A stretch of 64,000 nucleotides of DNA from Cupriavidus metallidurans CH34. Its GTDB lineage: Bacteria > Pseudomonadota > Gammaproteobacteria > Burkholderiales > Burkholderiaceae. The stretch is from NCBI RefSeq assembly GCF_000196015.1, contig NC_007974.2, positions 1,674,001 to 1,738,000 on the forward strand, in the 5' to 3' direction. A program made the position numbers and the translations under genes. This document shows, in pieces, positions 20,460 through 38,844 of this stretch (positions are counted from its first letter, which is position 1; each line of letters opens with the position of its first letter). The notes below the pieces were generated by a model. It was not told the DNA's origin and did no database searches. It saw only the letters and a list, made by a program, of their open reading frames with translations.

Positions 20460-20791
20460 GCGCCTGATCTCGTCTTGATCCCCCCAATTCGCTCCCTGAT
20501 CCGCTCCCAGATCGGCCCCCTGATCCTGAGCCAGGTCTTTCCCATAGGGTCCACGCCTTGTTCGCCGGGCCGGATTCACCGCTCCCATCACCGCTCCCGC
20601 CACCACACCAAGGCTAGCGGCCAAAGTGCCTGATTTGCCACTTGTGACACCCCCTCCATTCCCCCACCCACCCAACCCCATTTGGGTGGCTGTTCTCTTG
20701 AACGCAATTTGATGTACTGCGCTCCGGCCATGAGCTTTTCGCGCGTGCGCGCCGGCTCGGCGACCCAACAAGCCGCATACAGGAGACAGAT
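20460..20791. other. Intergenic region upstream of the alcohol-oxidation unit
   Basis: No gene seen. The left half contains several imperfect CTGATCC/GCTCCC-type short repeats. The right half contains the candidate regulator site at 20673-20689 and a possible -10 hexamer TGTACT at 20713-20718, so this is read as the promoter region of the following GMC gene. Confidence 0.5.
20673..20689 (+). promoter_or_regulatory. Candidate activator site, weak copy of the shared 17-bp motif
   Basis: CAACCCCATTTGGGTGG matches the motif at 26506, 30907 and 33928 at the outer positions (CMACC ... GGGTGG) but not in the TGA core. A TGTACT hexamer begins 24 nt after its last base, the same spacing as at the two other gene-proximal sites. 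See findings. Confidence 0.45.
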
Positions 20792-22465
20792 GTGACCCAA
20801 AATGAAAAACTCGCCGGCGATACGCCAGCGGTGGCGGCCTTCGACTACATCGTCGTCGGCGCAGGATCAGCCGGGTGCGCCGTCGCGGCGCGGCTGGCAG
20901 AGGATGCCGGCGTGACCGTGGCCCTGCTTGAAGCTGGCCCGAGCGACCATCACTTCAGCGTCTGGACGCCGGTGGCCCTCGCCGCGGTCGTCCCGAAAGC
21001 CGGTCCGCGCAACTACGCCTATCGCTCCGTGCCGCAGCCGGGGCTCAACGGCCGGCGCTCCTACCAGCCGCGCGGGCGCGGTTTGGGCGGCAGCTCGTCG
21101 ATCAATGGCATGGTCTATATCCGTGGCCACCGCAAGGACTACGACACCTGGGCGCAACTGGGCTGCCAGGGCTGGGGCTATGAGGATGTGCTCCCCTACT
21201 TCCGTCGCAGCGAAACCAACCATGCGCTCGATGACCGGCACCACGGCAAGGACGGCCCGCTGCACGTCAACGAGCTGCGCACGCCCAACCCGTTTTCCGC
21301 GCGCTTCATCGAGGCCGCGATGCAGGCCGGCATCCCGTTCAACCGCGACTTCAACGGCGCCGAACAGGACGGCGCCGGCTATTACCAGGTAACACAGCGC
21401 AACGGCGAGCGCTGGAACAGCGCGCGCGCCTACCTGCACCATGGCGATGCCAACGATGGCACCTTCAGCGGCGGCCGCCGCAACCTGACGGTCTGGACGG
21501 ACACGCAGGTGCAGCGCATCGTGTTCGAGGGTCGCCGCGCGGTCGGCGTCAGCATCACGCGCGCCGGCGTCACACAGGTGCTACGCGCGCGCCGCGAAGT
21601 GATCGTCAGCGGCGGCGCCTTCAACTCGCCGCAGCTTCTGCTCGCGTCCGGTATCGGCCCTGCTGCCCATCTGCGCGATCTCGGCATCGACGTCGTACAC
21701 GACCTGCCCGGCGTGGGCGAAAACCTGCAGGACCACCTTGACATCGCTGTGTGCCATCAGGTGCCGTCGCCGCAGCTTTTCGGATACTCGCTGCGCGGCG
21801 CGGCCAAGATGCTGGGCCAGTGGCGCCAGTATCGACGCGACCGCACCGGCATGTTCAGCTCCAATCTTGCCGAAGCAGGCGCCTTCCTGCGCAGCCGGCG
21901 GGAACTGGCCGAGCCCGACCTGCAGTTCCACTTCGTGCCGGGGCTTTCCTCGACGCATACCGGCATGCGACGCCGCGACCTCAAGCATGGCTTCACCGGC
22001 CTGGCCTGCCTGCTGCGCCCCGAAAGCCGCGGCCACGTGCGGCTGAACAGTGCCGATACCCGCGACGCGCCGCTGATCGATCCGCGCTTCCTTTCCGCCG
22101 AATCGGACATGGCAGGCATGGTCGCCTGCTTCCGCCTGATGCGCCGCATCCTGGCGCAGCCGGCACTGGCTTCCGCGCAAGGCCGTGAACTGCTCACCGA
22201 GGAGATCGGCCCCGGCGACGGCGACGAAGCCGCCATCCGCGCCTATGTGCGCCGTCATGCGGATTCGGTCTTCCACGCTATCGGAACTTGCAAGATGGGC
22301 GTGGATGCAATGGCCGTGGTCGACCCGTCCCTGCGTGTGCACGGCGTGGAAGGCTTGCGCGTGGTCGACGCCTCGATCATGCCGACGCTGATCGGCGGCA
22401 ACACCAACGCACCTGCCATGATGATCGGCGAGAAGGCCGCGGACCTGATCCGCTCGGGCGCCTGA
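20792..22465 (+). CDS. GMC oxidoreductase, choline-dehydrogenase/AlkJ-like alcohol dehydrogenase
   Basis: A 557-residue FAD enzyme that would oxidise an alcohol to an aldehyde, passing electrons to the quinone pool by analogy with AlkJ. Seen: the FAD fold YIVVGAGSAGCAVAARLAEDAGVTVALLEAG near residue 16, GLGGSSSINGMVYIRGHRKDYD, GAFNSPQLLLASGIG, and the catalytic HAIGTCKMG region followed by IGGNTNAPAMMIGEKAADLI. GTG 20792 has GGAGAC upstream. It heads a probable operon with the secreted propeller-like protein and the aldehyde dehydrogenase. The regulon motif upstream and the AlkS-type regulators nearby suggest induction by its substrate. Confidence 0.9.
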   Translation: MTQNEKLAGDTPAVAAFDYIVVGAGSAGCAVAARLAEDAGVTVALLEAGPSDHHFSVWTPVALAAVVPKAGPRNYAYRSVPQPGLNGRRSYQPRGRGLGGSSSINGMVYIRGHRKDYDTWAQLGCQGWGYEDVLPYFRRSETNHALDDRHHGKDGPLHVNELRTPNPFSARFIEAAMQAGIPFNRDFNGAEQDGAGYYQVTQRNGERWNSARAYLHHGDANDGTFSGGRRNLTVWTDTQVQRIVFEGRRAVGVSITRAGVTQVLRARREVIVSGGAFNSPQLLLASGIGPAAHLRDLGIDVVHDLPGVGENLQDHLDIAVCHQVPSPQLFGYSLRGAAKMLGQWRQYRRDRTGMFSSNLAEAGAFLRSRRELAEPDLQFHFVPGLSSTHTGMRRRDLKHGFTGLACLLRPESRGHVRLNSADTRDAPLIDPRFLSAESDMAGMVACFRLMRRILAQPALASAQGRELLTEEIGPGDGDEAAIRAYVRRHADSVFHAIGTCKMGVDAMAVVDPSLRVHGVEGLRVVDASIMPTLIGGNTNAPAMMIGEKAADLIRSGA

Positions 22466-22497
22466 TGACCACCACCTCTTCCCACCTGGAGCATTTG

Positions 22498-24264
22498 ATG
22501 CGCTGTTCCACCCGCTTCGCACTGACCGCCATCGCGGCCAGCCTGATTGCCACGACCGCCTGCGCTATTGGCCCCGCTGTTGGCCCCGCTGCCGGCCCCA
22601 CCGCCTCATCCGGGCCAGCGCCGAATCCGTTCCTGGCTCAGTCGTACAACAACCAGACCCACTGGAATGACGCCGCCACGGACAGCGTCGGATTCACCGT
22701 GCCGCGTGGCAACTTCGAGATTACGCCGGAATCGGTGCAGGTCATTCCCAACGAGTCCGTCAGTCTCCCGCTGGTCATGGACCACGTGGGCGGCCAGGAC
22801 ATCTACTGGTGGTGGGCCGGCTTCTCGCTGCGCAAGGTGGCGGTCGAGAACGGCAAGCTGACCGAGATCGCGCGTACCGAAATCCCCGTGCGCCTGCCGA
22901 ACTACACCCCGGTGACGCCGACGGAGCGCCAGGCACAGGCCGAGAAGGTGAAGACGTTCCTGGCGGCCCGCGACGAGGCTGGCCTGCTCGCCTACATGAA
23001 GTCGCAGCCGAACCGGATGCTGTCGTTCGCCGAGGACCAGGTCGCCAACGGCGCGGTCTACGCGGTGCTGGGCCGCGACGATACGTTCTACGGCTGCAGC
23101 GGTCGCCAGATCTTCCGCATCGACCAGCTCGACCCGAAATCGCCCACGTCGGGCATGACGCCGCTGCGCGCCGCCACGCTGCCGGCCAGCCTGTTCGACA
23201 ACGAGAAGATCAAACGCGGCAAGACCCGCCTGCCCGCCGATATCCTCTTCGGCATGGGCATGACCTACAACGGCTACCTGGTCGTCAACACGCTCGGCGG
23301 CAAGGTCGTCACGCTCGACCGCAATTCACTGCAGGTCATCGACAGCTACACCGTATCCGGCGCGGACGAGATGTTCATGAACAGCTTCGCCACGGGCCCC
23401 GAAGCCGGTGGCGGTGCGGTCTACGTGGCGTCCAACACCACGATGTACCGTCTGGTGGTTGACATCCACGGCAAGATCCACGACGACGAGGCCAGTGGTG
23501 CGTGGCGCGCCAATTACGACCGTGGCGTGGTGATGCCCGCGCCCAAGATCGCCGACGGCACCGGCTCCACGCCGACGCTGATGGGCTTTGGCCCGGACGA
23601 GGACAAGCTCGTGGTCATCACCGACGGCGCGCGCAAGATGCGCATGGTGGCCTTCTGGCGCGACAACATCCCCGCCGGCTGGAAGGCCAGGCCGGGCACG
23701 CAGTCGCCGCGCATCGCGGACCAGTTGGCGGTGGACATGGGGCCGAAGCTCGAATCGGTCCAGTCCGAGCAATCGGTGTCGGCTTTTGGCGACTACGCGT
23801 TCGTGGTCAACAACATCCCGACCAACGATTCGCCCCAGATCGAGCGCGGCGGCGGCTTCACGAGCCTGATCAACGGCGCCACGCGCCCGGGCCCGAGCGG
23901 CGTGGCCATGCTCAAGTGGCAGCAGCGCACCCACAACTGGAAGATGCAATGGGTGCGCACGGATGTGTCGTCGATCTCGGTGGTGCCGATGATCAGCGGC
24001 GGCGGCCGCATGGCAATCGTCGACGGCTACTTCACGAACCGCTGGAACGACCGCTATCACATCGGCATGGATCTGGACACCGGCAAGACCGTGATGACGA
24101 TCCGTACCGGCACCGATCCGACCTTCAACGGGCTGTACTCGCCCGTCAAGGTCGATGCCGAGGGCCACCTCTTCTATAGCGGCGCGTTCGGGCTGGTGCG
24201 GCTGGACACCTCCCGGATGAAGCGCGTGACCGGGGATGCCGTGACCACGGCGCAACGCCAGTGA
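22498..24264 (+). CDS. Secreted hypothetical protein, probable beta-propeller
   Basis: A 588-residue exported protein that I do not recognise by family. The N-terminus MRCSTRFALTAIAASLIATTA is a signal peptide, followed by a Gly/Pro/Ala-rich linker. The rest is beta-strand-rich with propeller-like blades such as YNGYLVVNTLGGKVVTLDRN, AVYVASNTTMYRLVVD and GHLFYSGAFGLVRLD, and conserved Trp-rich DIYWWWAG. ATG 22498 (GGAG 8 nt upstream) starts the signal peptide; an upstream ATG 22465 overlaps the GMC stop. It lies between an alcohol and an aldehyde dehydrogenase, so it may help bind or deliver the substrate or act in periplasmic oxidation; this is inference. Confidence 0.75.
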   Translation: MRCSTRFALTAIAASLIATTACAIGPAVGPAAGPTASSGPAPNPFLAQSYNNQTHWNDAATDSVGFTVPRGNFEITPESVQVIPNESVSLPLVMDHVGGQDIYWWWAGFSLRKVAVENGKLTEIARTEIPVRLPNYTPVTPTERQAQAEKVKTFLAARDEAGLLAYMKSQPNRMLSFAEDQVANGAVYAVLGRDDTFYGCSGRQIFRIDQLDPKSPTSGMTPLRAATLPASLFDNEKIKRGKTRLPADILFGMGMTYNGYLVVNTLGGKVVTLDRNSLQVIDSYTVSGADEMFMNSFATGPEAGGGAVYVASNTTMYRLVVDIHGKIHDDEASGAWRANYDRGVVMPAPKIADGTGSTPTLMGFGPDEDKLVVITDGARKMRMVAFWRDNIPAGWKARPGTQSPRIADQLAVDMGPKLESVQSEQSVSAFGDYAFVVNNIPTNDSPQIERGGGFTSLINGATRPGPSGVAMLKWQQRTHNWKMQWVRTDVSSISVVPMISGGGRMAIVDGYFTNRWNDRYHIGMDLDTGKTVMTIRTGTDPTFNGLYSPVKVDAEGHLFYSGAFGLVRLDTSRMKRVTGDAVTTAQRQ

Positions 24265-24295
24265 TCCAACACCCGACAACGACAAGGAGACACGC

Positions 24296-25717
24296 GTGAA
24301 GACACTCGACAGGTTCTACATCGACGGCCAATGGGTCACGCCAGCCGCCGCAGCCCGCAGCATGCCCATCGTCAACCCGGCCACGGAAGAGGTTGCCGGT
24401 CACGTCACGCTGGGCAGCGCGGAAGACGTCAACCGCGCCGTGGCCGCGGCACGTGCAGCGTTCCCGGCATGGTCCGAGACCAGCCGTGAAGAACGTCTGG
24501 CGCTGCTGGAACGGATCACCGCGTTGTACAAGGCACGCCTGGGCGACTTCGCTGAGGCGGTGCGCACCGAGATCGGCGCGCCGGTCAGCCTCTGCAATAC
24601 GCTGCAGGCCCCGATCGGACTCGCCCATCTGGGCGCCGCCACCGAAACGCTGCGCGCCTTCCAGTTCGAAACCGCCCACGGCAACAACTACGTGCGCCAT
24701 GAACCGATCGGCGTGGCTGCGCTGATCACGGCCTGGAACTGGCCGCTGAGCCTGATCTGCGCCAAGGTGGCCGCCGCGCTGGCCGCCGGCTGCACCATCG
24801 TCCTCAAGCCATCCGAAATCGCGCCGCTCGACGCGGCCCTGTTCGCCGAGGTGATGCACGAGGCAGGCACCCCTGCCGGCGTATTCAACATGGTGTTCGG
24901 CGATGGTCAGGAAGTGGGCGCGCGGCTTGCCGCCCACCCCGACGTGGATGTGATCTCGATCACCGGCTCCACCCGCGCGGGTATTGCCGTGGCGCAGGCC
25001 GCAGCCGCCACGGTCAAGCGCGTGCACCAGGAGCTTGGCGGCAAGTCGCCGCTGCTGATTCTGGACGACGCCGACCTGCAGGCCGCCGTTGCCCAAGGCG
25101 TCGGCCACGTCATGCTGAACTCCGGGCAGACCTGCATCGCGCCCACCCGGATGCTGGTGCCGCGCGATCGCTATGACGAAGCCGTGCGCGTGGCGGCCGC
25201 CACCGCCAATGCGTTGCAGGTCGGCGACCCCGCCGAGCCGGGCACGCGCATCGGTCCCATCTCCAACAAGGCGCAGTACGAAAAGGTCCAGCGCATGATC
25301 GGCACCGGCATCGAGGAAGGCGCCCGCGTCGTGGCGGGTGGACCGGGCCGGCCGGACGGGTTGACCCGTGGTTTCTATGCGCGGCCGACCATCTTCGCCG
25401 ACGTCGACAACAGCATGACGATCGCGCGCGAGGAGATCTTCGGACCGGTGCTGGTCATGATTCCGTACGACGACGAAGCACAGGGGGTCGACATCGCCAA
25501 TGACACGCCATACGGGCTCGCCGCGTATGTGGCATCGGGCGACCCTGCCCGCGCGCGGCGCGTAGCGGCGCGTCTTCGTGCCGGTTCGGTCCGCATCAAC
25601 GGCGGCCAGGTCGACCTGTCGATGCCGTTCGGTGGGTACCGCGCATCCGGCAATGGCCGTGAGAACGGCGCGCACGGGCTGGCCGAGTATCTCGAAGTCA
25701 AGGCCGTGACGGTCTGA
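24296..25717 (+). CDS. NAD(P)-dependent aldehyde dehydrogenase
   Basis: A 473-residue aldehyde dehydrogenase that oxidises an aldehyde to its acid. All family elements are present: cofactor site AALITAWNWPLSLICAKVAAALAAG, SITGSTRAGIAVAQ, catalytic Glu in HQELGGKSPLL, catalytic Cys in NSGQTCIAPTRML, and EEIFGPVLVMIPYDDE. GTG 24296 has GGAGACACGC upstream. Third gene of the GMC-propeller-ALDH unit, and followed by a terminator, so the unit appears to convert an alcohol to a carboxylate. Confidence 0.95.
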   Translation: MKTLDRFYIDGQWVTPAAAARSMPIVNPATEEVAGHVTLGSAEDVNRAVAAARAAFPAWSETSREERLALLERITALYKARLGDFAEAVRTEIGAPVSLCNTLQAPIGLAHLGAATETLRAFQFETAHGNNYVRHEPIGVAALITAWNWPLSLICAKVAAALAAGCTIVLKPSEIAPLDAALFAEVMHEAGTPAGVFNMVFGDGQEVGARLAAHPDVDVISITGSTRAGIAVAQAAAATVKRVHQELGGKSPLLILDDADLQAAVAQGVGHVMLNSGQTCIAPTRMLVPRDRYDEAVRVAAATANALQVGDPAEPGTRIGPISNKAQYEKVQRMIGTGIEEGARVVAGGPGRPDGLTRGFYARPTIFADVDNSMTIAREEIFGPVLVMIPYDDEAQGVDIANDTPYGLAAYVASGDPARARRVAARLRAGSVRINGGQVDLSMPFGGYRASGNGRENGAHGLAEYLEVKAVTV

Positions 25718-25758
25718 CCAGACCCGATAAGGAAGGAATCGATAAGGAAGAAAACGGG

Positions 25759-25792
25759 AAGGGAGCGGCGGCGCCGCTCCCTTTGTCGTTTC
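25759..25792. terminator. Bidirectional terminator between convergent genes
   Basis: A perfect 11-bp stem (AAGGGAGCGGC / GCCGCTCCCTT) with a 3-nt loop lies between the ALDH stop and the stop of the opposing hypothetical gene. T-rich tracts follow on both strands (TTTGTCGTTT on plus, CGTTTTCTT on minus). Confidence 0.8.
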
Positions 25793-25796
25793 TGGG

Positions 25797-26435
25797 TCAT
25801 CGAGGACGCCGGCTGATCGTCCATCCCACGAATGGGTCCGCGCCGGTGCGATGCCGCATCCAGTCCGTCCGGCACAACATGCACTGATGCGCGCGCGTTT
25901 CGCACATGGCGCTGCCGCCCAGACTGCGCCACTGCAGATCGCCTGCGGGACGCAACGCCCCGTGGCCGCCCGCGCGACGGCTGTCGTGACGCAGCCGCTC
26001 GCAGTGCGTGCACAGCGGCCCTTCGGCTGTGGCCGGCATGGCACGGACGCGCGCGGCGGCGGCCACCGTGGCGTCGCCGATATCGAGCCGGCGCGCGGCC
26101 TCGCCCCAGCGGCTACGCAGTCGGCGCGCGGCCGCCAGGTAAAGCATCCGCACCGCCTCGCCGCCGCCGCAGGTGGCGGCCTGACGACATGACTCGGCGT
26201 ACCGCCTCACATCCAGACCGAACTGCGCCGCCGTGGCGAAGCAGACTACGCGCTGCCGCCCATCGCCGGTTGCCATCCATGCGTCGAACAGTGCAGCCAG
26301 CCGGTCTTCGTAGGCTTCCGTGGCACATGCCTGCGCCAGGGCCATGCGATGCGCGCGGCGCGTCAGGGCGCGTACCTCGCGGCGAAGATCGCCGGCGTCG
26401 GGGGTCGTTTGGGCAATACGCTGCGCGCCGGGCAT
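25797..26435 (-). CDS. Cys/Arg-rich hypothetical protein with possible zinc-ribbon tail
   Basis: A 212-residue soluble protein not matching a family I know. The N-terminal two thirds are Arg/Ala-rich helices; the C-terminal third has Cys pairs spaced like a zinc ribbon or knuckle: LCTHCERL near residue 143 and CETRAHQCMLCRTDW near residue 181. GAGGAGA lies 4-5 nt before ATG 26435 and a TATAAT -10 box lies at 26461-26466 (minus strand), which supports it as a real gene. The 26506 motif lies about 60 bp upstream of its presumed start of transcription, so it may share control with the divergent CoA-enzyme operon. FlhC-like Cys spacing was considered but not supported. Confidence 0.6.
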   Translation of the reverse strand: MPGAQRIAQTTPDAGDLRREVRALTRRAHRMALAQACATEAYEDRLAALFDAWMATGDGRQRVVCFATAAQFGLDVRRYAESCRQAATCGGGEAVRMLYLAAARRLRSRWGEAARRLDIGDATVAAAARVRAMPATAEGPLCTHCERLRHDSRRAGGHGALRPAGDLQWRSLGGSAMCETRAHQCMLCRTDWMRHRTGADPFVGWTISRRPR

Positions 26436-26505
26436 GATGTCTCCTCGATATAGTCAGCCGATTATAGGAACGCAATTCGCCGCCACCGCGCAAACCCGAC
26501 ACGTC

Positions 26506-26522
26506 CAACCTGATACGGGTGG
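26506..26522 (+). promoter_or_regulatory. Candidate activator site (shared 17-bp motif)
   Basis: CAACCTGATACGGGTGG, differing from the copy at 33928 at three positions. A possible -10 hexamer TCTACT (26546-26551) starts 24 nt after it, ahead of the CoA-enzyme operon; a TATAAT for the divergent gene lies 40 bp on the other side. Confidence 0.65.
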
Positions 26523-26585
26523 CTTCGCCCCATGTCGGATTTTGGTCTACTGGCAGGCAGACAAAACCATCTTCGGGAGACAACC

Positions 26586-27752
26586 ATGGGCGTCCTCAGC
26601 GGTATCCGCGTCATCGAATTCGAAGCCATCGGCCCTGGGCCGTTCGGCGCCATGCTTCTGGCCGACATGGGCGCGGACGTGCTGCGCATCGACCGGCCCG
26701 TGGCCCCCACGGACCTGGGCCCGCAGCGCGGCCCCGGCAAGCGCATCGACGTCACGGGGCGTGGCCGCCGCTCGGTCACCATCGACCTCAAGCAGCCGGA
26801 AGGCCAGCAGGCCGCGCTGGAACTGATCGCCAAGGCCGATGTGGTGATCGAGGGATTCCGCCCCGGCACCATGGAACGCCTTGGGTTGGGCCCCGCCATC
26901 GCGCTGGCGCGCAATCCGCGCCTGATTTACGGCCGCATGACCGGCTGGGGCCAGACCGGTCCGATGGCCGACCGCGCGGGGCACGACCTCAACTACATTG
27001 CGCTGTCGGGCGTGCTGTCGGGGATCGGCCGTGCCGGCGAGGCCCCGGTTCCGCCGCTGAACCTGGTGGGCGATTACGGTGGCGGCGGCATGTTGCTGGC
27101 GCTTGGCGTGGTATCCGCCTTGCTCAACGTGCATCGTGGCGGCAAGGGTCAGGTGGTGGATGCGGCGATGATCGAAGGCGCCGCGCAGCTTGGCGCGGTG
27201 ATCTGGGGCCTGATTGCCTCGGGCAACTGGCGCGAGTCGCGTGGCAGCAACTTGCTGGACGGCGGCACCCCCTGGTACGACAGCTATTGCACCCGGGATG
27301 GCCAGTACATGTCGGTGGGCGCCGTGGAGTCGCGTTTCTACGCTGAACTGATCGAAAAGCTTGGCCTGGCCGGCGAGACCCTGCCCGGCCAGCACGACCG
27401 CGCCGGCTGGCCCACCCTGCGCCGCCGCTTCACTGAAGTATTCCTGACCCGTACGCGCGATGAGTGGTGCGCGATCTTCGACGGCAGCGATGCCTGCGTG
27501 GCGCCGGTGCTGACCTTTTCCGAAGCGCCGGACCATCCGCAGCACCGCGCGCGCGGCAGCTTCATCGAAGTGGACGGCGTGGTGCAACCCGGCCCAGCGC
27601 CGCGCTTTCTCGGCACCCCGTCCGAAGTCCGCCACGCAGCCCCGGCACGTGGCCAGCATGGCGGCGCCGCGCTGCGCGAATGGGGATTCGACGACGCCGC
27701 AATTGCCAAACTGCGCGCGCAGGGCCTCGGCTTTGTCGAGGCGCAGCCATGA
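26586..27752 (+). CDS. Class III CoA enzyme, alpha-methylacyl-CoA racemase-like
   Basis: A 388-residue CaiB/BaiF-superfamily protein whose N-terminus (LSGIRVIEFEAIGPGPFGAM, then LLADMGADVLRIDRP) is that of alpha-methylacyl-CoA racemase. The catalytic pair of that enzyme is conserved: His133 in AGHDLNYIALSGVL and Asp163 in GDYGGGGM. So it probably epimerises 2-methyl-branched acyl-CoAs so that a stereospecific acyl-CoA dehydrogenase can act; CoA transfer remains possible. GGGAGA precedes ATG 26586; the frame extends to 26532 without a ribosome site. It overlaps the thioesterase gene by 4 bp. Confidence 0.85.
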   Translation: MGVLSGIRVIEFEAIGPGPFGAMLLADMGADVLRIDRPVAPTDLGPQRGPGKRIDVTGRGRRSVTIDLKQPEGQQAALELIAKADVVIEGFRPGTMERLGLGPAIALARNPRLIYGRMTGWGQTGPMADRAGHDLNYIALSGVLSGIGRAGEAPVPPLNLVGDYGGGGMLLALGVVSALLNVHRGGKGQVVDAAMIEGAAQLGAVIWGLIASGNWRESRGSNLLDGGTPWYDSYCTRDGQYMSVGAVESRFYAELIEKLGLAGETLPGQHDRAGWPTLRRRFTEVFLTRTRDEWCAIFDGSDACVAPVLTFSEAPDHPQHRARGSFIEVDGVVQPGPAPRFLGTPSEVRHAAPARGQHGGAALREWGFDDAAIAKLRAQGLGFVEAQP

Positions 27753-28180
27753 GCGCGCCGATGCTGGTCCTGCTGCCGGCCACCTCGGACACGCCGCACG
27801 GCTTCAGGCGCGTGCGGTCCAGCCCGGGCTTTATGACGACCTGCGGCGAGTTCTATGTCCACGAGAGCGAGCCAATCCTGGCCACGCGCATCACGACTGC
27901 CCACCTGAACGCGCAGGACATCGTCCACGGCGGCTTTCTGGCCACGCTCGCCGATTCTGCGTACGGCGTGGTCCTGCGGCGCACCAACCCCGAACTGATC
28001 CCCCGCACGGCGCAACTGAGCGTCAGCTACCTTGGCGCCGTGTGCGAGGGCGACTTCGTGGAGGCACGGGTCACGCTGCACAAGATCGGCAAGCGGCTCG
28101 TGAATGGCAGTTGCGATGTGTATGTGGGGGACCGGATGGTGCTGCAGACGACAGCGGTGTTCTCGGTGGTCGCTGCTTAG
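27749..28180 (+). CDS. PaaI-type hotdog thioesterase
   Basis: A 143-residue single-hotdog acyl-CoA thioesterase. The PaaI motif is clear: AQDIVHGGFLATLADSAYGVVL, with His-Gly-Gly and the Asp in the long helix, then TAQLSVSYLGAVCEGDFVEA. It starts inside the stop of the racemase-like gene (ATGA overlap), so the two are translationally coupled. It may release CoA from dead-end acyl-CoAs in the pathway. It converges on the LuxR-type regulator gene. Confidence 0.9.
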   Translation: MSAPMLVLLPATSDTPHGFRRVRSSPGFMTTCGEFYVHESEPILATRITTAHLNAQDIVHGGFLATLADSAYGVVLRRTNPELIPRTAQLSVSYLGAVCEGDFVEARVTLHKIGKRLVNGSCDVYVGDRMVLQTTAVFSVVAA

Positions 28181-28231
28181 TCCAACCCGGTCTGGTCCGG
28201 TCTGGACCTGGCCGTCACCGGCCTTCCATCT

Positions 28232-30814
28232 TCAGGCGGTACCCGTGCGCAGCGCCCGGTTGCGCACGGCCAGTATGACTTCGTAGCGCGTGGAAACGCC
28301 CAGCTTGGCGTAGATCTGGCGCAGGTTCCACTTGACCGTATCGACACTCAGGTTCAATACCAGCGCGATGCGCTTGTTCGACATCGACTGCTCGAGCAGC
28401 GCGACGATATCGCGCTCGCGCGGGGTCAGATGCTCCGGCTCGCCGTCACGCCTGCGCCGCCGAATCATCGGCAGGCACGTGGCGGGCTGCTGGAGCTGAT
28501 CCTTCGCGGCGCGCACCCGGCCCAGCCAGTTGTCGCGCACCGCGTCGCCCGATGGCTGCACACAGTCGAGCAGCGCCGGAATGCCCGGCTCATCGCGCAA
28601 CATGCGCAACAGGCCAAGCCGCAGCCCCGCGGCCAGTGCCGATTCAAGATGGCGCACCACGAGTTGTGGCCGGTCCAGGGCGGCATTCACACGCGCGAAC
28701 AGTAGATCGATCAGGACCAGCGCGCCGGCGTTGTCGGAGCGGACCGGCTCCAGCGCGGCCAGCGCCCCAACCGGGTTGCCGGCACTCAGCGCCACGCGCA
28801 CGCGCGACAACGCCGCGATCGTGCCGACCTCCCGGGCGCGCATGTCCGATGCATCCAACGTGGCGGCCAGCGCGTCGAGTTCGTCCTGCAGCAGGCCAGC
28901 ATGCCGCAAGTCCCCGGCTTGAATGGCGAACACCACCCGCTGCGCCAGCAGACGTAACTGCACCCGCATCAGCCCCCGCCCCGCCGCGTGGGCCTGCGCC
29001 TCGGCCAGCGTCGCGCGAGCGCCATGCTGGTCGCCGGCCAGCCATTGCAGCCGTGCCTGGCACAGCGTGGCCACGATCATCACGTCCGGCGAGGAGTGAT
29101 GGGCCAGGTCGAGCCAGCAGGCCATCATCTCGGCAGCTTCCTCGGCGCGGTCCTGTTCGAGCAGGGCGGCCGCTACCGGCACCGCGCATACGCAAGCGCT
29201 CACCGAACGTCTGCCATGAATCTGCTGCGCCATGCGTGCCGCCGGCATCCCGATAGCCTGAGCCCTGCGCGCATCCCCGCGCAGCAGCATGGTCAACGCG
29301 GCCGCGCCATGCGCCATCGCCACCAGTTCATCATGAGGCGCCGCTTCCAGCCTTGGCACCGGCGGAAACTCGGGCCGATGCAGCATGGCCCCGCATCGCA
29401 CCGCCAGCGCGGCGCGAATGTGCTCCAGCGACGGATGCGGCAGTGCATGGCCGCCGAGCCGGGCCAGCCAGACATCCATGGTGGCAGGGTCATCTTTCTG
29501 GAACGCGATACTCGCGCGGACCAGCGCGACTTGCGGGGCAACATCGTCGCACCCGGCGACCATGGCCAACCAGCGCTCCGCCTCGCCCAGACGTGCCGCA
29601 ACGGTGCAAGCCCAGGCCGCGGCCAGCCACAGGGCGGGCTCGTCGACCACATGTTTGACGCCAGCCTGATCGATCCAGTCCGGTAACGCGCGAAGCTGAC
29701 TCAGCGCCGGCATCGCCGGCATGGCTTCGCGCACGACGTGCGCCACGAGCCCGCCATCGTCGGCACGCATGGCGTGGTCCAGCGCCTCACCGCTGCTACC
29801 GACCCGCAGCCACGCGGCGACGGCTCGCCGGTGCAGCGCCAGCCGGTCTGCACCGGCAAGCGGCATCGACCGCCGCAGCCAGTCGGCAAACAGCGGATGG
29901 AGCGTATGCCAGCCCGCGTGCGCCCGGGCTGGGCCGATGAAGATCCCCTGCCCGACCAGACTCCGCGCGCATTCGGCGGCGCGAGGCACACCCGTGACCT
30001 CGGCGGCGAGTTCCGGCGTCCAGCGGTCGAGCCATGCGAGCCAGCGCAACAACCGCGCCTGTCCCACGCTCAGCCCTGGCGCCACCACTTCGGACCAGTA
30101 CGCGTCGAGCGCCGCGCGCGAATCGTCGGGCGCGCGCCCCCCAGCCAGCATTCGCACGCCCGCCGGCCAGCCGCGGGTAGCCTCCATCAACCGCACGCTC
30201 GCGGCCTGACCCGATTCGGGCGGCAGGCACGCTCGGGTTTCGGCCAGGGTGAAGGCCAGCGATTCGTCGTCGAATTCGACCACCACGCCCTCCGCCCCAA
30301 GCTGCCCAAGACGCAAGGCCGGACGGCAGCGCGTGGCCAGCGCCAGATGCAGGCGCGGCAGGCGCGCGTCGATCAAGGCCTGCAACACGGCCCATGCGCC
30401 GGTGTCGCGCAAGTACTCCGCGCCATCGAGCATCAGATAGAGTTCATCGGGCACCGCGGCCAGCGCCGCGATCAGGGCTTCGGTCGGGTCGTGCCGGGAT
30501 GATGGCGACACGTCGCCCTGTACTACGCTGGCCACGCTGGCCGCGATGGCTGCGCAAAACCGCGTCGGCGCGTCAAGTTCCGGGCCGAGCGAGAGCCAGC
30601 CCACGCGCGCGCGCGCCCCCACGAGTTGCTGGCGCCACTGCGCCAACAGCGTGGTCTTGCCGTACCCCGGGCTGGCAGCCAGCACCACCAGCGCCGCATG
30701 GCGCGCCTCATGCAGCCGCGCCAGCAGCGCGTCGCGCATGGCGATGCCGCCGCCCAGCCTGGGCGGCATGAGCTTGTGGGAAGGCACACTGCAATCCATG
30801 GACATCGGCTCCAT
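28232..30814 (-). CDS. MalT/AlkS-type (LAL) LuxR-family regulator 1
   Basis: An 860-residue ATP-dependent transcription activator of the LAL class. It starts with a P-loop NTPase domain (Walker A ASPGYGKTTLLAQW near residue 45, Walker B-like ELYLMLDGAEYL), continues with a winged helix and a long helical repeat region that binds the inducer, and ends with a LuxR helix-turn-helix (LTPRERDIVALLEQSMSNKR, then SVDTVKWNLRQIYAKLGV). MalT senses maltotriose and AlkS alkanes; this one probably senses the substrate of the surrounding pathway. It is divergent from a second LAL regulator with a 17-bp palindrome between them. Start uncertain: several Met codons in the first 30 residues. Confidence 0.9.
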   Translation of the reverse strand: MEPMSMDCSVPSHKLMPPRLGGGIAMRDALLARLHEARHAALVVLAASPGYGKTTLLAQWRQQLVGARARVGWLSLGPELDAPTRFCAAIAASVASVVQGDVSPSSRHDPTEALIAALAAVPDELYLMLDGAEYLRDTGAWAVLQALIDARLPRLHLALATRCRPALRLGQLGAEGVVVEFDDESLAFTLAETRACLPPESGQAASVRLMEATRGWPAGVRMLAGGRAPDDSRAALDAYWSEVVAPGLSVGQARLLRWLAWLDRWTPELAAEVTGVPRAAECARSLVGQGIFIGPARAHAGWHTLHPLFADWLRRSMPLAGADRLALHRRAVAAWLRVGSSGEALDHAMRADDGGLVAHVVREAMPAMPALSQLRALPDWIDQAGVKHVVDEPALWLAAAWACTVAARLGEAERWLAMVAGCDDVAPQVALVRASIAFQKDDPATMDVWLARLGGHALPHPSLEHIRAALAVRCGAMLHRPEFPPVPRLEAAPHDELVAMAHGAAALTMLLRGDARRAQAIGMPAARMAQQIHGRRSVSACVCAVPVAAALLEQDRAEEAAEMMACWLDLAHHSSPDVMIVATLCQARLQWLAGDQHGARATLAEAQAHAAGRGLMRVQLRLLAQRVVFAIQAGDLRHAGLLQDELDALAATLDASDMRAREVGTIAALSRVRVALSAGNPVGALAALEPVRSDNAGALVLIDLLFARVNAALDRPQLVVRHLESALAAGLRLGLLRMLRDEPGIPALLDCVQPSGDAVRDNWLGRVRAAKDQLQQPATCLPMIRRRRRDGEPEHLTPRERDIVALLEQSMSNKRIALVLNLSVDTVKWNLRQIYAKLGVSTRYEVILAVRNRALRTGTA

Positions 30815-30906
30815 ACCTGCCGGCCGGCACTCTCAGACCGCTCGCAGACCGTATGGCCAGCAGGATATGCCTGTGCGCGCGCGTTGCGGCCGACAGCCTC
30901 CCTGGC

Positions 30907-30923
30907 CCACCTGAAGCGGGTGG
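30907..30923. promoter_or_regulatory. Candidate LAL-regulator site between the divergent regulators
   Basis: CCACCTGAAGCGGGTGG, with CCACC/GGTGG arms, flanked by one more C/G pair. It shares 14 of 17 bases with the copy at 33928. Placed between the two regulator genes it could control either or both. Confidence 0.65.
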
Positions 30924-31049
30924 GAACCGCGCAAAGCGCACGGTCGTGCGCTTTTGCTCCTCCCGCGCCACCGGGGCGGCGAGTAGAATCGCTTGGCATC
31001 GGGCCCTTGCCCCTCCTGCGCGCCGCTGCATCCGGCGCTGGTCAAACCC

Positions 31050-33893
31050 ATGTCCCAGCCTTTTTCCGCGCCGGCTGAATCCGCATCGATCGACGTCTTC
31101 GCGGATATCTCCCCCGACGTTTCTCCTGACGTTTCTCCCGACGTTTCGCCGCTATCGGCGGCGCGTGCGCATCCGCGCGGCACCGCGCGTGTGGTGGCAC
31201 GCGAACGGCTGCTGGCCCAGCTCACCGAGGCTCGCCGCCGCCGCTGCATCGTGATCCAGGGGCCCGCCGGTTTCGGCAAGACGGCCGTGCTGGTGGCCTG
31301 GCGACTAGACCTCCGCGCCCTGGGCTTTGACATGGCCTGGGTGACGCTGGCCGACGACGACAACGAGATGACCCACTGGCTCGACCATGTGCTGTCGAGC
31401 CTGGCGCAGGTCAGCCCCGCCATCACGCGCGAGGCCGCCCTGCTCGGCGGCCTGGGCGACCTGGAAAGCGAGGCGATCGAGCGCACCGTGATCGCGCTGG
31501 TGGGCGGCATCGCGGCGTGCCCGCGCGAGATCGTGCTGGTGATCGACGAACTGCACCGCCTGACCAATCCTCGCGTGCTGGAAGCCATGCAATGGCTGCT
31601 GGACTACGCGCCGCCTAACCTGCATGTGGTGCTGGCCTCGCGCAGCCAGGTGCCGCTCTCGCTGGGACGCCTGCGCGACCAGGACCTCGTGCTTGAACTC
31701 GACCAGCGCGACCTGCGGCTGACCGCCGATGAATCGCGGCGCTTCCTGGCCACGCAGCTGACCGGGATCGACGCGCGCGATGCGCGGGTACTACACGAGC
31801 TGACCGACGGATGGGTAGCCGGCCTGCAACTGTTCGCCACGCACTGGAAACGCAAGAAGCAGGACGCCAACAGCCTGTCGTTCGCCAACGATTTCGTGCG
31901 CGCCAATGTGCTGAATGCGGGCGCCTTCTCGGCCTATTTCGAACGCGAGGTGCTGTCACGCCTGGCCCCGGACGAAGCCGAGTTGCTGGTGCACGCGGCC
32001 GCCTGCGAGCGCTTCTGCGCATCGCTTTGTGTCGCCCTGACTGGAGGACGCGCCGATTCGGAACCCGTGGTGTCGGCGCTGCTGGCGCGGCTCGACAACG
32101 AGAACCTGTTTATCGAACCAGTACAGGGGCCCGACCGGGCACCGTGGTACCGGCTGCATCCGCTCCTGCGCGAAACACTGGCGGAGCGGTTCCGCCAGCG
32201 CAGCGAATCGGTGCGGCATCAAGTCCATATGGCGGCCTGGCAGTGGTTCCGTGATCACCGGTTGCTCGTCGAAGCGGTCAGGCACGCGGTGCTGGCCGGC
32301 GAATCCGGTACCGCTGCGGATCTGGTCGAACGCTACTCATCGACCCTGATCGGACGTGGCGAGGTGCGCAAGGTGGCGGGCCTGCTGCACCAGCTTCCCA
32401 AACCAGAGGTCCGTGCCCGGCTGGCGTTGCGCCTGCTCACGGTGCAGATGCAACTCTATGCGCACGAAGTTGATGCTGCGCGGGCCGACCTCGACGCGCT
32501 CGACGGCGAACTGCCAGCCGAAGGGGAGCTGCGCCAGCGCCTCAGGCAACTCCAGACGATGTGGATGGTGCTGACCGACAACGCCGAGGGCGCGCAGCGG
32601 CTACAGCCGTTGCTCGAATCGATGCCGGACGACATCGGCGGCTTGATGGTTGGCGCGCGCAACAACCTGTTGACGTGGCTCTACATGCATCAGGGCAACT
32701 ACGAGCGCGCCCGCGCCATCCAGTCGGAAAACGCGCCATTGATCGTCGAGGGCGCGCCGCTGCTCGGCAGCGCGGCCGGCATGCTCAACGGCCGATGCAT
32801 GGCCGCCTTCAGCTACGCGATAGAAGGCAAGATCACGCAGGTGGAGCGCATTTGCCGTGACGTGATACGAGAAAGCGAACAGGCCGGCGCATTCGGGACT
32901 GAGCCCGAGTACTTTGCGGCAGCCATGCTTGGCGAGGTGCTCTACGAGCAGAACCAGATCGAAGCCGCGCTGGCCATGCTGGAGCCCCGTGTGGACGTGC
33001 TGGAGCGGATCTCGATTCCCGATTCGGTATTGCGCGTCTTCATGACGCTGGCGAACTGCCATGCCGCTCGTGGTCACCATCTGGATGCCTTTGCCTACCT
33101 CGAACGGCTGGAAGAACATGCCACGCGACGCAGGCTCGATCGTTTGCTTGCGCACAGCCTCGCCGGCCAGGTCCGGTTGCATCGGCGAGCCGGCGACCCT
33201 GCCGCGGCGGATGCCTGCCTGGCGCGGCTCGAGGCCATCGCCGAACGCCACCGCGACGCGGGCCCTGGCACCATGGACGAGATCCTTCTGGTGGCACGCC
33301 GCGCGCGCGTCAAGGGATACCTGGACGACGGTGATCCCGCGAAGGCGGCCGCCGCCGTCGGCCCGCTGATCGACCAGTGTCAACGACGCGGATGGCAACG
33401 CCATCTCGCGCAGATGCAGTGGATGGCAGCGCTGGCCGATCATCGACTCGGCAACGATGCGTCCGCGCGCGAGCGCGTGCTGGCTGCATTGCGCGCGGGC
33501 CACCGGCTTGGCCTGGTGCGCAGCCTGCTCGACGTTGACCCGGGCGCGCTCGACGAGATTGCCGCACTGGCGCAACAGCCCGGCGAAGCGCCCGATCCGC
33601 TGCTCGCGTTCTACATCAGCCGCCTGCGCGCGACCGGTGCCACCAACCCGATGACATCAGCCCGCGCTGCGGCACCGGCCACGCTGCGCACCCTGGCGGA
33701 GCCACTGAGCGAACGCGAAGCCGATGTGGTGGAGTTGCTCGGACAAGCGCTGCCCAACAAGAAGATCGCCCGCACGCTCGGCCTATCGCCCGAGACCGTG
33801 AAGTGGCACCTCCGCAACATCTTCCGCAAGCTTGGCGTGACATCGCGCGACGAAGCCGTCGCGCGTGTGCGCGACCTTTCCCGCCCGAGCTGA
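31050..33893 (+). CDS. MalT/AlkS-type (LAL) LuxR-family regulator 2
   Basis: A 947-residue LAL regulator. A low-complexity N-terminus with D-V-S-P repeats precedes the NTPase domain (Walker [17 protein letters not shown], Walker [13 protein letters not shown]), then helical repeats and the C-terminal LuxR helix-turn-helix ([20 protein letters not shown], then [18 protein letters not shown]). It lies directly upstream of, and reads toward, the beta-oxidation operon, so it is the best candidate activator of it. ATG 31050 is taken as start, but the frame is open to a TTG at 30993 and neither has a strong ribosome site. The two regulators are clearly paralogous but diverged. Confidence 0.9.
31113..31148 (+). 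repeat. 12-bp in-frame tandem repeat coding for D-V-S-P
   Basis: Three 12-bp units (CCCGACGTTTCT and one- or two-base variants) inside the start of regulator 2. The period is a multiple of 3, so copy changes only lengthen or shorten a PDVS linker. Confidence 0.9.
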
Positions 33894-33927
33894 CCCGGGC
33901 ACTCCTTCCCTCGCGAAAGCGACCGCG

Positions 33928-33944
33928 CCACCTGACATGGGTGG
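33928..33944 (+). promoter_or_regulatory. Candidate activator site of the beta-oxidation operon
   Basis: CCACCTGACATGGGTGG, a 17-bp imperfect palindrome. The hexamer GTAACT (33968-33973) begins 24 nt downstream and the first gene starts at 34067, leaving about 90 nt of leader. Confidence 0.7.
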
Positions 33945-34066
33945 TAGTGGCCGCCCCCTCCCCGGGCGTAACTTAGCGTCATTCGATCGCACGTCCGATC
34001 CCGCGGGATCGGCAGGCGACAAACGCCCTGCGGCACCATGTGCCGCTGACCGAGGAGACGCGTTCC

Positions 34067-35962
34067 ATGACCGCAACGTCCGCTGCCCGCAGCGACACCG
34101 CGCCCAAGTTCCGGCCAACGGTATTCCCGCCGCGCACCACGCTCGTCGAGCAGCGTGCCGACGGCACCATCGTCCTGCGCTGCGCCAACCCGCCGGCCGA
34201 CCCCGCCCAGCTCGGACTCGGCGAGTTTGCCGCCCACTGGGCGGTTCAACGCGGCGATACCTGCGCGTTCGCCGAACGCGAATCGACCAGTCCGGACGCC
34301 GCATGGCGGATGATCACCTGGGCCGAGATGTGGCAACAAATCCAGTCCGTCGGCGCCGCCCTGCTGGAGATGGGCCTGGGCGCTGACTGTCCGCTGATGA
34401 TCCTCTCTGGCAACTCGATCGAACACGCCATACTAGTGCTGGCAGCCGAGCACGTCGGCGTGCCCACGGCGCCGGTCTCGCCCGCTTATTCGCTGGTGAG
34501 CAAGGATTTCGCGCGACTCCGCGACGTAGTGAGCCTGGTGCCGCCGGGTGCGATCTTCGTGCAGGATGCCGCCGCCTTCGCCCGCGCGCTCGACGTCATC
34601 GGCAAGCCCGATGTGCCCGTCATCGCGGTGCGCGGCGCGCGCAAAGGCCACCACGACTGGGCCTCGCTGGTCGCCACCACCGTGACGCCGGCACGCCGCG
34701 CGGCAGTGCAGGCCGCGCACGATGCCATCCACGAAGACGACCTGGGCCGCGTGCTGTTCACATCCGGCTCCACCGGTGTGCCCAAGGGCGTGGCACTGTC
34801 GCACGGCAACCTCCGCGCCGTGGCTGCTTACTACCTGGAGAGCTTTCGGCCGCTGCTGGAACGCCCATCCCGCTACCTCGACTGGCTGCCATGGCACCAC
34901 GGCCTGGGTGGCGTGCTGAACATGACGCGCGTGGCCACGTTGGGCGGCAGCCACTACATCGACGATGGACGCCCGCTGCCGGGTCAGTTCGATCGCACCG
35001 TACGAAATATGCGCGATGTCGCTGCAACCGTGTACACCGCCGTGCCCGCCGCCTGGATGATGCTGGTGACCGAGGCCGAGCGCAATCCGGAAGTCGCACG
35101 CAACCTGTTCTCCGAGGCGGTGAACTTCTCCTACGGTGGCGCCAGCCTGCCGCGCGATGTCTGGGACCGCATCCACGCGCTGTCCGAACGCACCATTGGC
35201 GAGCGCGTGGCGTTCTGCTCGGGCCTCGCTTGCACCGAGTCGAGCGGCGTGGGCCTCTACTGCACGTGGCCAAGCGAGACCACTGGGAACATCGGCGTGC
35301 CCGCGCCCGGCGTCTCCGCGAAGCTCATCCCGCTCGAAGGCGGTGATGGCCGCTACGAGATCCGCATCAAGGGCCCCAGCGTATTCAAGGGCTACGTACA
35401 GCGCCCCGACCTCACTGCCGCCGCATTCGATGAAGAGGGCTTCTTCAAGATGGGAGACGCGGTGCGTCTGCAGGACCCCTCCGATCCTGCACGCGGCCTG
35501 TCGTTCGCCGGCCGCGTGGCCGAGGACTTCAAACTCACCAACGGCACCTGGGTCCGTACCGGCGCGGTGCGCCTTACGCTGGTCGAACAATGCGCGCCGC
35601 TGCTCAACGATGCAGTGATCTGCGGCCACGACCACGACTACCTGGCGGCGCTGGCCTGGCCCAACGTCGCAGCCTGCCGGAGTCTTGCGCCCGAACTGTC
35701 GGAGCTCGACGCCGAGGCGCTGGTCCGGCACCCCATCGTCGTCGAAGCCATTCGCACTCGGCTACACGCGCCGGCGAGCGGCAAGGGCGCCAGTCTGTCC
35801 GTGCGTCGCGTGATGCTGATGGCGGAACCGCCGTCGATGGACGCGAACGAAATCGCCGACAAGGGCTACGTAAATCAGGCCGCCACGCGGGCACGCCGCG
35901 CCCATCTGGTCGAAGCCCTGTTTCATCCCGAACCCGAAAGCCACATTGCCTGCGCGCGATAA
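34067..35962 (+). CDS. Acyl-CoA ligase, feruloyl-CoA-synthetase-like
   Basis: A 631-residue AMP-forming acyl-CoA synthetase of the ANL family. Seen: the P-loop-like motif LFTSGSTGVPKGVALSHGN, a middle part with GLACTESSGVGLY (A5-type region), and DAVRLQDPSDPARGLSFAGRVAEDFKLTNGTWVRTG near the C-terminus. The N-terminus and overall length resemble feruloyl-CoA synthetase, so an aryl or bulky acid is plausible. GAGGAGA precedes ATG 34067. It is the first gene of a six-gene operon covering one complete beta-oxidation turn and would activate the free acid made by the upstream alcohol/aldehyde dehydrogenases. Confidence 0.9.
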   Translation: MTATSAARSDTAPKFRPTVFPPRTTLVEQRADGTIVLRCANPPADPAQLGLGEFAAHWAVQRGDTCAFAERESTSPDAAWRMITWAEMWQQIQSVGAALLEMGLGADCPLMILSGNSIEHAILVLAAEHVGVPTAPVSPAYSLVSKDFARLRDVVSLVPPGAIFVQDAAAFARALDVIGKPDVPVIAVRGARKGHHDWASLVATTVTPARRAAVQAAHDAIHEDDLGRVLFTSGSTGVPKGVALSHGNLRAVAAYYLESFRPLLERPSRYLDWLPWHHGLGGVLNMTRVATLGGSHYIDDGRPLPGQFDRTVRNMRDVAATVYTAVPAAWMMLVTEAERNPEVARNLFSEAVNFSYGGASLPRDVWDRIHALSERTIGERVAFCSGLACTESSGVGLYCTWPSETTGNIGVPAPGVSAKLIPLEGGDGRYEIRIKGPSVFKGYVQRPDLTAAAFDEEGFFKMGDAVRLQDPSDPARGLSFAGRVAEDFKLTNGTWVRTGAVRLTLVEQCAPLLNDAVICGHDHDYLAALAWPNVAACRSLAPELSELDAEALVRHPIVVEAIRTRLHAPASGKGASLSVRRVMLMAEPPSMDANEIADKGYVNQAATRARRAHLVEALFHPEPESHIACAR

Positions 35963-35999
35963 GCCCGCCCGCACGACACCAACTCAAGAGGAGACTGTC

Positions 36000-37139
<1,140 letters not shown>

Positions 37140-38390: not shown

Positions 38391-38831
38391 ATGATCGACA
38401 AGAAGCATATCGGCAAGGTCATCGCGGATTTCCGCACGTCGGCGCCCGCGAGCCAGTTGCGCTTCTTCGCCAAGGCCACCGGCGAGACGCGTGCGATCTA
38501 CACCGACGAGGCAGCCGCACGCGACGCCGGCCATCGCGGCCTGCCGTTGCCGCCGACGTTCCTGTTCTCGCTGGAACTGGTGAACCCGCCGAGCGGCTGG
38601 CGCGAGGAACTGGGCATTCGCACCGAGCGCATCCTGCACGGCGAGCAATCGTTCACGTATCACCGCATGGCCTACGCCGGCGATGTGCTGCACTTCCGCA
38701 CCACCATCACCGACATCTACGACAAGCGGAATGGCGCCCTGGACTTCGTGGTGCGCGAGACCCGTGTCACCAACCAGGACAACGAGCACGTGGCGGACCT
38801 GCGCAGCGTGCTGGTACAGCGCAATGGATAA
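38391..38831 (+). CDS. MaoC-like dehydratase, N-terminal (FAS1-type) half
   Basis: A 146-residue hotdog protein of the MaoC N-terminal/FAS1-dehydratase type: FAKATGETRAIYTDEAAARDAG, LPLPPTFLFSLELVNP, and RILHGEQSFTYHRMAYAGDVLHF. In this class the protein usually lacks the catalytic loop and pairs with a second MaoC protein, here the next gene, as a heterodimeric enoyl-CoA hydratase. It begins 11 bp after the thiolase stop with GGAG upstream. Confidence 0.9.
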   Translation: MIDKKHIGKVIADFRTSAPASQLRFFAKATGETRAIYTDEAAARDAGHRGLPLPPTFLFSLELVNPPSGWREELGIRTERILHGEQSFTYHRMAYAGDVLHFRTTITDIYDKRNGALDFVVRETRVTNQDNEHVADLRSVLVQRNG

Positions 38832-38844
38832 GCGGAGGGGTTCC

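Follow-up and report, generated by a model that had tools for sequence, protein, structure and literature searches.

A 17-bp palindrome as the likely operator of a large ATP-binding LuxR-type regulator in a predicted branched-chain catabolic cluster of Cupriavidus metallidurans CH34

Which protein reads a palindrome that recurs in front of several enzyme gene units and between two regulator genes, and what do the genes behind it do? The question is raised by a 64,000-nt stretch of the metal-tolerant soil bacterium Cupriavidus metallidurans CH34 (contig NC_007974.2, positions 1,674,001 to 1,738,000; here called the window and numbered from its first nucleotide). A 15.3-kb query from it aligns end to end with NZ_CP046333.1 of C. 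metallidurans strain FDAARGOS_675 at 100.0%. Four copies of a 17-bp palindrome of the approximate form CYACCYGNNNCGGGTGG lie on its forward strand: operator 1 at 20673..20689 (CAACCCCATTTGGGTGG), operator 2 at 26506..26522 (CAACCTGATACGGGTGG), operator 3 at 30907..30923 (CCACCTGAAGCGGGTGG) and operator 4 at 33928..33944 (CCACCTGACATGGGTGG). Operator 1 is upstream of a unit for a GMC oxidoreductase and an aldehyde dehydrogenase (ALDH), operator 2 of a unit headed by a racemase homologue, and operator 4 of an operon for an acyl-CoA ligase and beta-oxidation enzymes. Operator 3 lies between the divergent genes of two MalT/LuxR-type regulators, LAL1 and LAL2 (LAL, large ATP-binding LuxR-type regulator). 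A first-pass annotation had read the four copies as marks of an undescribed catabolic regulon under a LAL, and all four are present where it placed them. We consider it likely that the palindrome is the operator of LAL2 in an activator-type regulon of the three enzyme units, working by the mechanism proposed below.

The palindrome is not distributed at random over the genome. Its exact pattern is matched five times in 6.9 Mb, four of them within this 13-kb stretch. With up to two mismatches the window held seven matches, against a mean of 2.27 after shuffling (0 of 100 shuffles reached seven), and with up to one mismatch the whole genome held 21 places against seven for a reversed control pattern. 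These patterns were composed after the four sites were known, so the informative part is the scarcity elsewhere. Because the pattern derives from the four sites themselves, we built an independent symmetric weight matrix from 19 sites of other genomes, among them that of the congener Cupriavidus lacunae; three of the sites lie beside a sister clade of LAL2. The matrix ranked operators 3, 4, 2 and 1 first to fourth in the window (21.7, 17.8, 16.1 and 12.3 bits). The fifth-best match, at 11.2 bits, is located inside a gene; at a threshold of 12 bits, about 5.5 sites per Mb are expected in random sequence. Operator 1 came out as the weakest copy, as had been noted. The description of three copies before enzyme units and a fourth between two LuxR-type genes holds for the positions, but the strongest copy is operator 3 and not an enzyme site.

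The distance from the palindrome to a possible promoter element is conserved as well. The hexamers TGTACT (20713..20718), TCTACT (26546..26551) and GTAACT (33968..33973), candidate -10 elements of predicted promoters, start 24 nt past the last base of operators 1, 2 and 4, as the first-pass annotation had it; for operator 2, TTTTGGTCTACT is also found in C. lacunae. The claim of exactly 24 nt does not survive when the TA is taken as the anchor, with offsets of 26, 26 and 25 in the window and of 23-26 across species. If the hexamer is the -10 element, the palindrome is centred near -44, and LuxR-type activators sit near -44. The conserved distance to a TA-containing hexamer across relatives is consistent with the activator-type placement suggested earlier. 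TA was found at +23..26 in 27 of 27 enzyme-directed sites, whereas shuffling of each downstream stretch gave 4.0 on average and never 27 in 20000 rounds; this figure overstates the case and is not a probability, because the offset range was picked after inspecting the 27 sites and the sequences are related, and the new loci described below are the fairer test. The -10-like element mostly takes the form TATNCT or TAMCTT before the ligase unit (for instance GTACCT, TATCCT, TATTCT and TATGCT in relatives), YTACTK before the racemase unit and TACYGT before the MFS- or TauD-headed units of relatives, with TAAACT (L059) and TAACCT (L065, L073) among the exceptions.

The set of 27 was assembled by hand, three sites from the window and 24 from relatives, with orientation and target assigned manually (L and G numbers are our handles for loci and genomes). 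Its row L083_GMC is the site before an MFS gene, L057_up precedes a TauD gene, and L061_up precedes an unscanned gene of the same length as the L057 TauD gene. None of five LAL-directed sites has TA at +23..26, and these five were left out of the count; on the LAL2 side of operator 3 no TA occurs within 38 nt past the palindrome. Also left out were lower-scoring or unclear sites, some of which have TA at +23..26 and others not, as judged by eye: window 60546; L054 12786; L056 7569; L058 1648, 7485 and 7609; L060 4742; L062 1833; L063 11657 and 18135; L065 9536, 13602 and 18187; L071 2849; L073 11835, 15930 and 20519; L083 1412; and the sites in L081, L082, L090, L001 and L096-L098.

To follow the motif across relatives, we gathered 17 stretches around the best LAL2 relatives, one locus from a contig collection and three from a plasmid collection, whose records had no annotated feature over the stretches. 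Of 150 family genomes, 46 have relatives of LAL2 at 1e-50, many of them distant; at 1e-220 the count is 42 of 398 genomes. Both counts include the own genome. At 1e-150 only the own genome had one among 399 order genomes, a sample that evidently did not contain the known LAL2-bearing family genomes. In a tree, the window LAL2 falls in a clade of 14 proteins (support 99/99); LAL1 sits outside this clade, on a long branch. The strict pattern CCACCYGNNNNGGGTGG was found at 25 distinct places (manual count of all rows) in 14 genomes that have LAL2 relatives, against six for the reversed control. Seventeen of these lie no more than 20 kb from a LAL2 relative (at least 41% identical), two lie on contigs other than the regulator's, directly before the orthologous ligase gene (L085, L092), and six lie elsewhere. 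The 15 family genomes without a close LAL2 relative held three such places (control, four).

The motif is also kept upstream of the orthologous units, namely the ligase/acyl-CoA dehydrogenase (ACAD), racemase, and GMC- or TauD/ALDH-type units, which the first-pass annotation had made a test of its proposal. For instance, C. lacunae has CTACCTGATACGGGTGG before its racemase gene, and in L052 and L053 the next gene after the site is the ACAD and not the ligase. A site precedes an MFS gene in L083, L122 and L150, with GMC following in L150 and in G065, and a TauD gene in L057; a weaker copy precedes an ETF-QO gene (L083 1412). Porin and ETF genes are present in some relatives' clusters.

A larger family search supplied 23 new loci, of which 21 were counted; L102 and L111 were dropped as 100% identical to the training loci L052 and L072. 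Twenty of the 21 have a site of at least 14 bits within 1.5 kb of LAL2, where about 0.004 per locus is expected. The site lies no more than 350 nt after LAL2 in 17 of the 20 new loci that have downstream flank, and all 17 of these sites have TA at +23..26.

LAL2 (31050..33893, forward strand, start chosen; the frame is open from 30993) has the features of a LAL. AAA_16 is present as the N-terminal ATP-binding domain (32.9 bits, cut-off 32.6), TPR_MalT as the MalT-like repeat region (62.9 bits) and GerE as the C-terminal LuxR-type helix-turn-helix (residues 885-938), all above the Pfam cut-offs, and its 947 aa fall within 850-1000 residues. LAL1 (28232..30814, reverse strand, 860 aa) has GerE at 795-848 and scores 186.7 bits with the MalT model (cut-off 537); it has no TPR_MalT match, and AAA_22 is below cut-off (23.9 vs 27). 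A search with LAL1 in the contig collection gave one locus, that of C. lacunae. Recurrence of the palindrome beside LAL2 relatives and before orthologous units agrees with the earlier suggestion that a LAL-type regulator would bind it. As many enzyme sites have no LAL1 beside them, LAL2 is the more probable binder at these sites.

The enzymes behind the palindromes suggest a common pathway. In the unit after operator 2, the racemase homologue (26586..27752, forward strand, as are the other genes of the three units) has the CoA-transferase family III fold, and its best PDB match is the 2-methylacyl-CoA racemase 1x74, at 1.2e-117 vs 2.6e-37 for the best match not named racemase. It keeps the residues aligned to H126, D156 and E241 of 1x74 (one pairwise alignment). 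On the closeness to 1x74 and the conserved His, Asp and Glu we rejected CoA-transferase as its function, and by sequence the protein is an alpha-methylacyl-CoA racemase. A 4HBT-family thioesterase follows (27749..28180; PF03061, 8.1e-13). The operon after operator 4 starts with the ligase, an AMP-binding acyl-CoA synthetase (34067..35962; PF00501), and an ACAD (35955..37139; PF00441/02770/02771). The SCP2-type thiolase (37192..38379) is by sequence nearest to SCP2-thiolase type-1 (PDB 6hsj and 6hrv, about 4e-132) and exceeds the family cut-off (NCBIfam PRK08256, 679 bits, cut-off 436). Next come two MaoC-like hydratase halves, one with FAS1_DH_region (38391..38831; PF13452, 1.2e-39) and one at 38827..39261 (start chosen; PF01575, 3.4e-15, scanned as 38683-39261). 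The last gene encodes an SDR (39304..40128; PF13561/PF00106), a probable 3-hydroxyacyl-CoA dehydrogenase whose sole PDB match at 1e-45 is the (3R)-hydroxyacyl-CoA dehydrogenase 2et6. The hydratase halves and the ACAD complete a round of beta-oxidation with the thiolase and the SDR.

The steps upstream of beta-oxidation are represented in the unit after operator 1, by the GMC alcohol dehydrogenase and the ALDH. The GMC protein is choline-dehydrogenase-like (20792..22465; PF00732/PF05199), with choline dehydrogenase and alcohol/choline oxidases as its best PDB relatives, and the ALDH (24296..25717) matches Pfam Aldedh at 1.6e-155. The ligase, the racemase and the GMC protein receive no NCBIfam name above cut-off. 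Taken as a set, the genes probably encode a pathway for alpha-methyl-branched acids. The regulon would then be narrower than the "catabolic units" of the first-pass annotation, as the evidence points to beta-oxidation of alpha-methyl-branched acyl-CoAs.

From what was observed of the motif, its specificity, conservation and spacing and the gene families around it, we infer binding, activation, an inducer and a substrate in the following way. An inducer and ATP would switch on LAL2, a MalT/AlkS-like activator. Active LAL2 would bind the 17 bp positioned from about -52 to -36 and adjoin sigma-70 RNA polymerase, which would read the TA-containing -10 hexamer 23-26 nt past the palindrome. Three units would be turned on in this manner: the GMC alcohol dehydrogenase with the ALDH, the alpha-methylacyl-CoA racemase with the thioesterase, and the acyl-CoA ligase with the ACAD, MaoC, SDR and SCP2-type thiolase. 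Together they would carry out the beta-oxidation of alpha-methyl-branched acyl-CoAs derived from a branched alcohol or acid. Operator 3 lacks a -10 placement towards LAL2 and is probably a control site of one or both regulator genes; its role is less clear because, among Cupriavidus loci, the site accompanies LAL1. Some relatives also have a site upstream of LAL2, again without -10 placement, which in the new Cupriavidus loci is tied to LAL1. In one group of relatives, at L060 (8330), L062 (8349), L063 (11657), L071 (2849) and L120, the site upstream of LAL2 precedes a GGGAATACCC-like stretch, which is itself an inverted repeat.

Could LAL1 bind the palindrome, alone or with LAL2, at least at the site between both genes? 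The strongest site stands there, and such a site is also found between the two genes in C. lacunae (L052, to which L102/G712 is identical in DNA), L099, L101 and L103-L106. Among the new Cupriavidus loci (L099-L109), it occurs upstream of LAL2 in seven of the eight that have a divergent LAL1 relative (duplicate L102 included) and in none of the three that lack LAL1 (L107-L109). However, enzyme-directed sites occur in retrieved stretches with LAL2 and no separate LAL1 relative (among them L054, L056, L057, L060, L062, L072, L108 and L109; in the first six, LAL1 matches, if any, overlap LAL2), and on these grounds we rejected LAL1 as the sole binder of the enzyme sites. A helix stretch reads VKWNL in LAL1 vs VKWHL in the listed site-bearing LAL2 proteins, although VKWHL is also found in paralogs with another operator. 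A part for LAL1 thus seems unlikely to us. That an unrelated regulator owns the palindrome and merely shares its targets with LAL2 would suit the many places of a looser pattern far from LAL2 and the conserved sites before a distant ACAD gene in other Cupriavidus (L081, L125, L135). We judge this very unlikely, as the strict matches cluster near LAL2 relatives, are scarce in genomes without them, and often lie directly beside LAL2.

The activator-type geometry could also be questioned, with LAL2 binding as a repressor or with the true promoters elsewhere. The LAL-directed sites without TA at +23..26 leave room for this, as the mode may differ there, and AlkS is described in PMC8784404 as repressing one of its own promoters. 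Against it stands the TA at +23..26 kept in every enzyme-directed site and every new-locus site counted above, which would put the palindrome centre near -44, and we hold repression or a different geometry to be quite unlikely. Short G+C-rich palindromes do arise in G+C-rich DNA, and reversed control patterns match occasionally, so the copies might have been chance palindromes or RNA hairpins in leaders. Position and conservation in the new loci speak against both; the sites lie upstream of the proposed -10 and would therefore not be transcribed from it, and a chance origin was rejected on the shuffles, the matrix ranks and the recurrence in new loci. We attach almost no probability to this explanation.

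Returning to LAL2 as the activator of a branched-chain pathway, several further points weigh against it. The site at 20673 is weak, and no TA is found at +23..26 of C4:1012080, the fifth exact match in the genome. The strict pattern has no exact match in four of the 14 genomes with LAL2 relatives (G138, G136, G132 and G030), and G030 has only variants such as CTACCCGCCGCGGGTGG. With the looser CYACCYGNNNYGGGTGG, 17 of 44 distinct places in nine LAL2 genomes lie no more than 20 kb from LAL2 and 27 do not (control, 11). Two of the 17 LAL2-near places of the strict pattern (G069 58186 and G065 245410) adjoin sister-clade regulators, which shows that the motif also occurs outside the 14-member clade. 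As for the new loci, L105-L109 and L120 share about 90-95% identity over long stretches with loci used before, and L116 and L117 are 95% identical to each other; L107 has no site, and in L099 and L120 the 350 nt after LAL2 hold none. On the side of the pathway, H126, D156 and E241 of 1x74 are residues that we take to be the catalytic His, Asp and Glu. The nearest model of the ligase is PRK12582 (690.9 bits, below the cut-off of 777), presumably feruloyl-CoA-synthetase-like, and an aromatic acid is therefore also possible as the substrate.

Some features of the locus and its relatives stand beside these questions. Between the GMC and ALDH genes lies a gene for a 588-aa protein (22498..24264, forward strand, start chosen) with no Pfam or NCBIfam match; L054, L057, L058 and L062 have a TauD-family protein before the ALDH at this place. 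A 212-aa protein without a Pfam match is encoded on the reverse strand (25797..26435), divergent from the racemase unit, and also adjoins the racemase in L052 and L053. The fifth exact palindrome of the genome (G000:C4:1012080-1012096; L001 1501-1517) lies between a TctC-like receptor gene and a 258-aa gene whose product resembles a GntR-type regulator by eye; a strong palindrome also precedes a TctC gene in L065, beside a LAL2 paralog. In L081, L125 and L135 (site at 1501), from other Cupriavidus, the palindrome before the distant ACAD gene has TA at +25. This ACAD is 27% identical to that of the window, and its gene is a possible further target of the regulon.

The same genome encodes a paralogous LAL on another replicon (C3:2756663), 44% identical to LAL2. 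Its cluster resembles that of the window in combining a LAL with ACAD, SCP2-type thiolase, MaoC, SDR and CoA-transferase-III genes, but its palindromes read CTACCCRNNNYGGGGAG. This pattern has only two matches in the genome, both between divergent ACAD genes (G000:C3:2753027-2753104; L066 5028-5105). Elsewhere, the places near the corresponding LAL were one of one in G138, one of two in G069 and three of three, within 28 kb, in G030; there was no match in G123 or G647, and the reversed control had one match, in G069. Five of the eight places were known when the pattern was written, so the test lies in its genome-wide scarcity. The operator of the paralogous LAL appears to have diverged. The separation is imperfect, as sister-clade regulators in L055, L065 and L073 have a strong LAL2-type palindrome at their own gene. 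We offer, with slightly less than even confidence, a wider proposal: a Burkholderiaceae LAL family would be devoted to a bacterial equivalent of the branched-chain beta-oxidation of peroxisomes, LAL2 would sense an alpha-methyl-branched acyl-CoA or the alcohol or acid from which it derives, and the two paralogous C. metallidurans LALs would run two such pathways kept apart by the diverged operators CYACCYGNNNYGGGTGG and CTACCCRNNNYGGGGAG.

With this analysis, an observation on a string of letters becomes the prediction of a regulon whose regulator is named, whose operator is defined and whose pathway can be tested. Branched-chain compounds of isoprenoid-like, sterol-side-chain-like or synthetic kinds are frequent in soil and in pollution, and could be sensed by a LAL activator with a single operator. 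A natural experiment on the divergence of DNA recognition in LALs is offered by this one genome, with its two paralogous LALs whose operators apparently differ. In the titles and opening parts of abstracts of the papers listed from an open-access library, a scope outside which most subscription papers fall, we found no description of this operator or regulon, which is consistent with its having been called undescribed.

How does the predicted system compare with known ones? The cluster resembles peroxisomal branched-chain beta-oxidation (AMACR, MFE-2, SCPx): relatives of the racemase, the (3R)-hydroxyacyl-CoA dehydrogenase and the SCP2-thiolase are found in one cluster with MaoC-like hydratases, although here the cluster is bacterial and has an acyl-CoA dehydrogenase. 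LAL2 shares with MalT of enteric bacteria the ATPase domain, the MalT-type TPR and the C-terminal LuxR helix-turn-helix, but scores 267.5 bits against the MalT cut-off of 537. MalT uses several non-palindromic boxes, whereas the palindromes here are single. A likeness in outline is found in AlkS/PalkB of Pseudomonas putida GPo1, where a large MalT/LuxR-type activator governs a carbon-source pathway, alkane oxidation. According to PMC8784404, the inverted repeat that AlkS recognises is 20 bp long and lies upstream both of the alkane promoter and of the gene for AlkS itself. The repeat in the window is 17 bp and not 20, so the LAL2 system was not classed as AlkS, though alike in outline; the enzymes differ as well, with no alkane monooxygenase among the Pfam families named in the three units, and the comparison is one of architecture. 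By this analogy, the predicted LAL2 system has an outline known from AlkS, and an operator and an enzyme set of its own.

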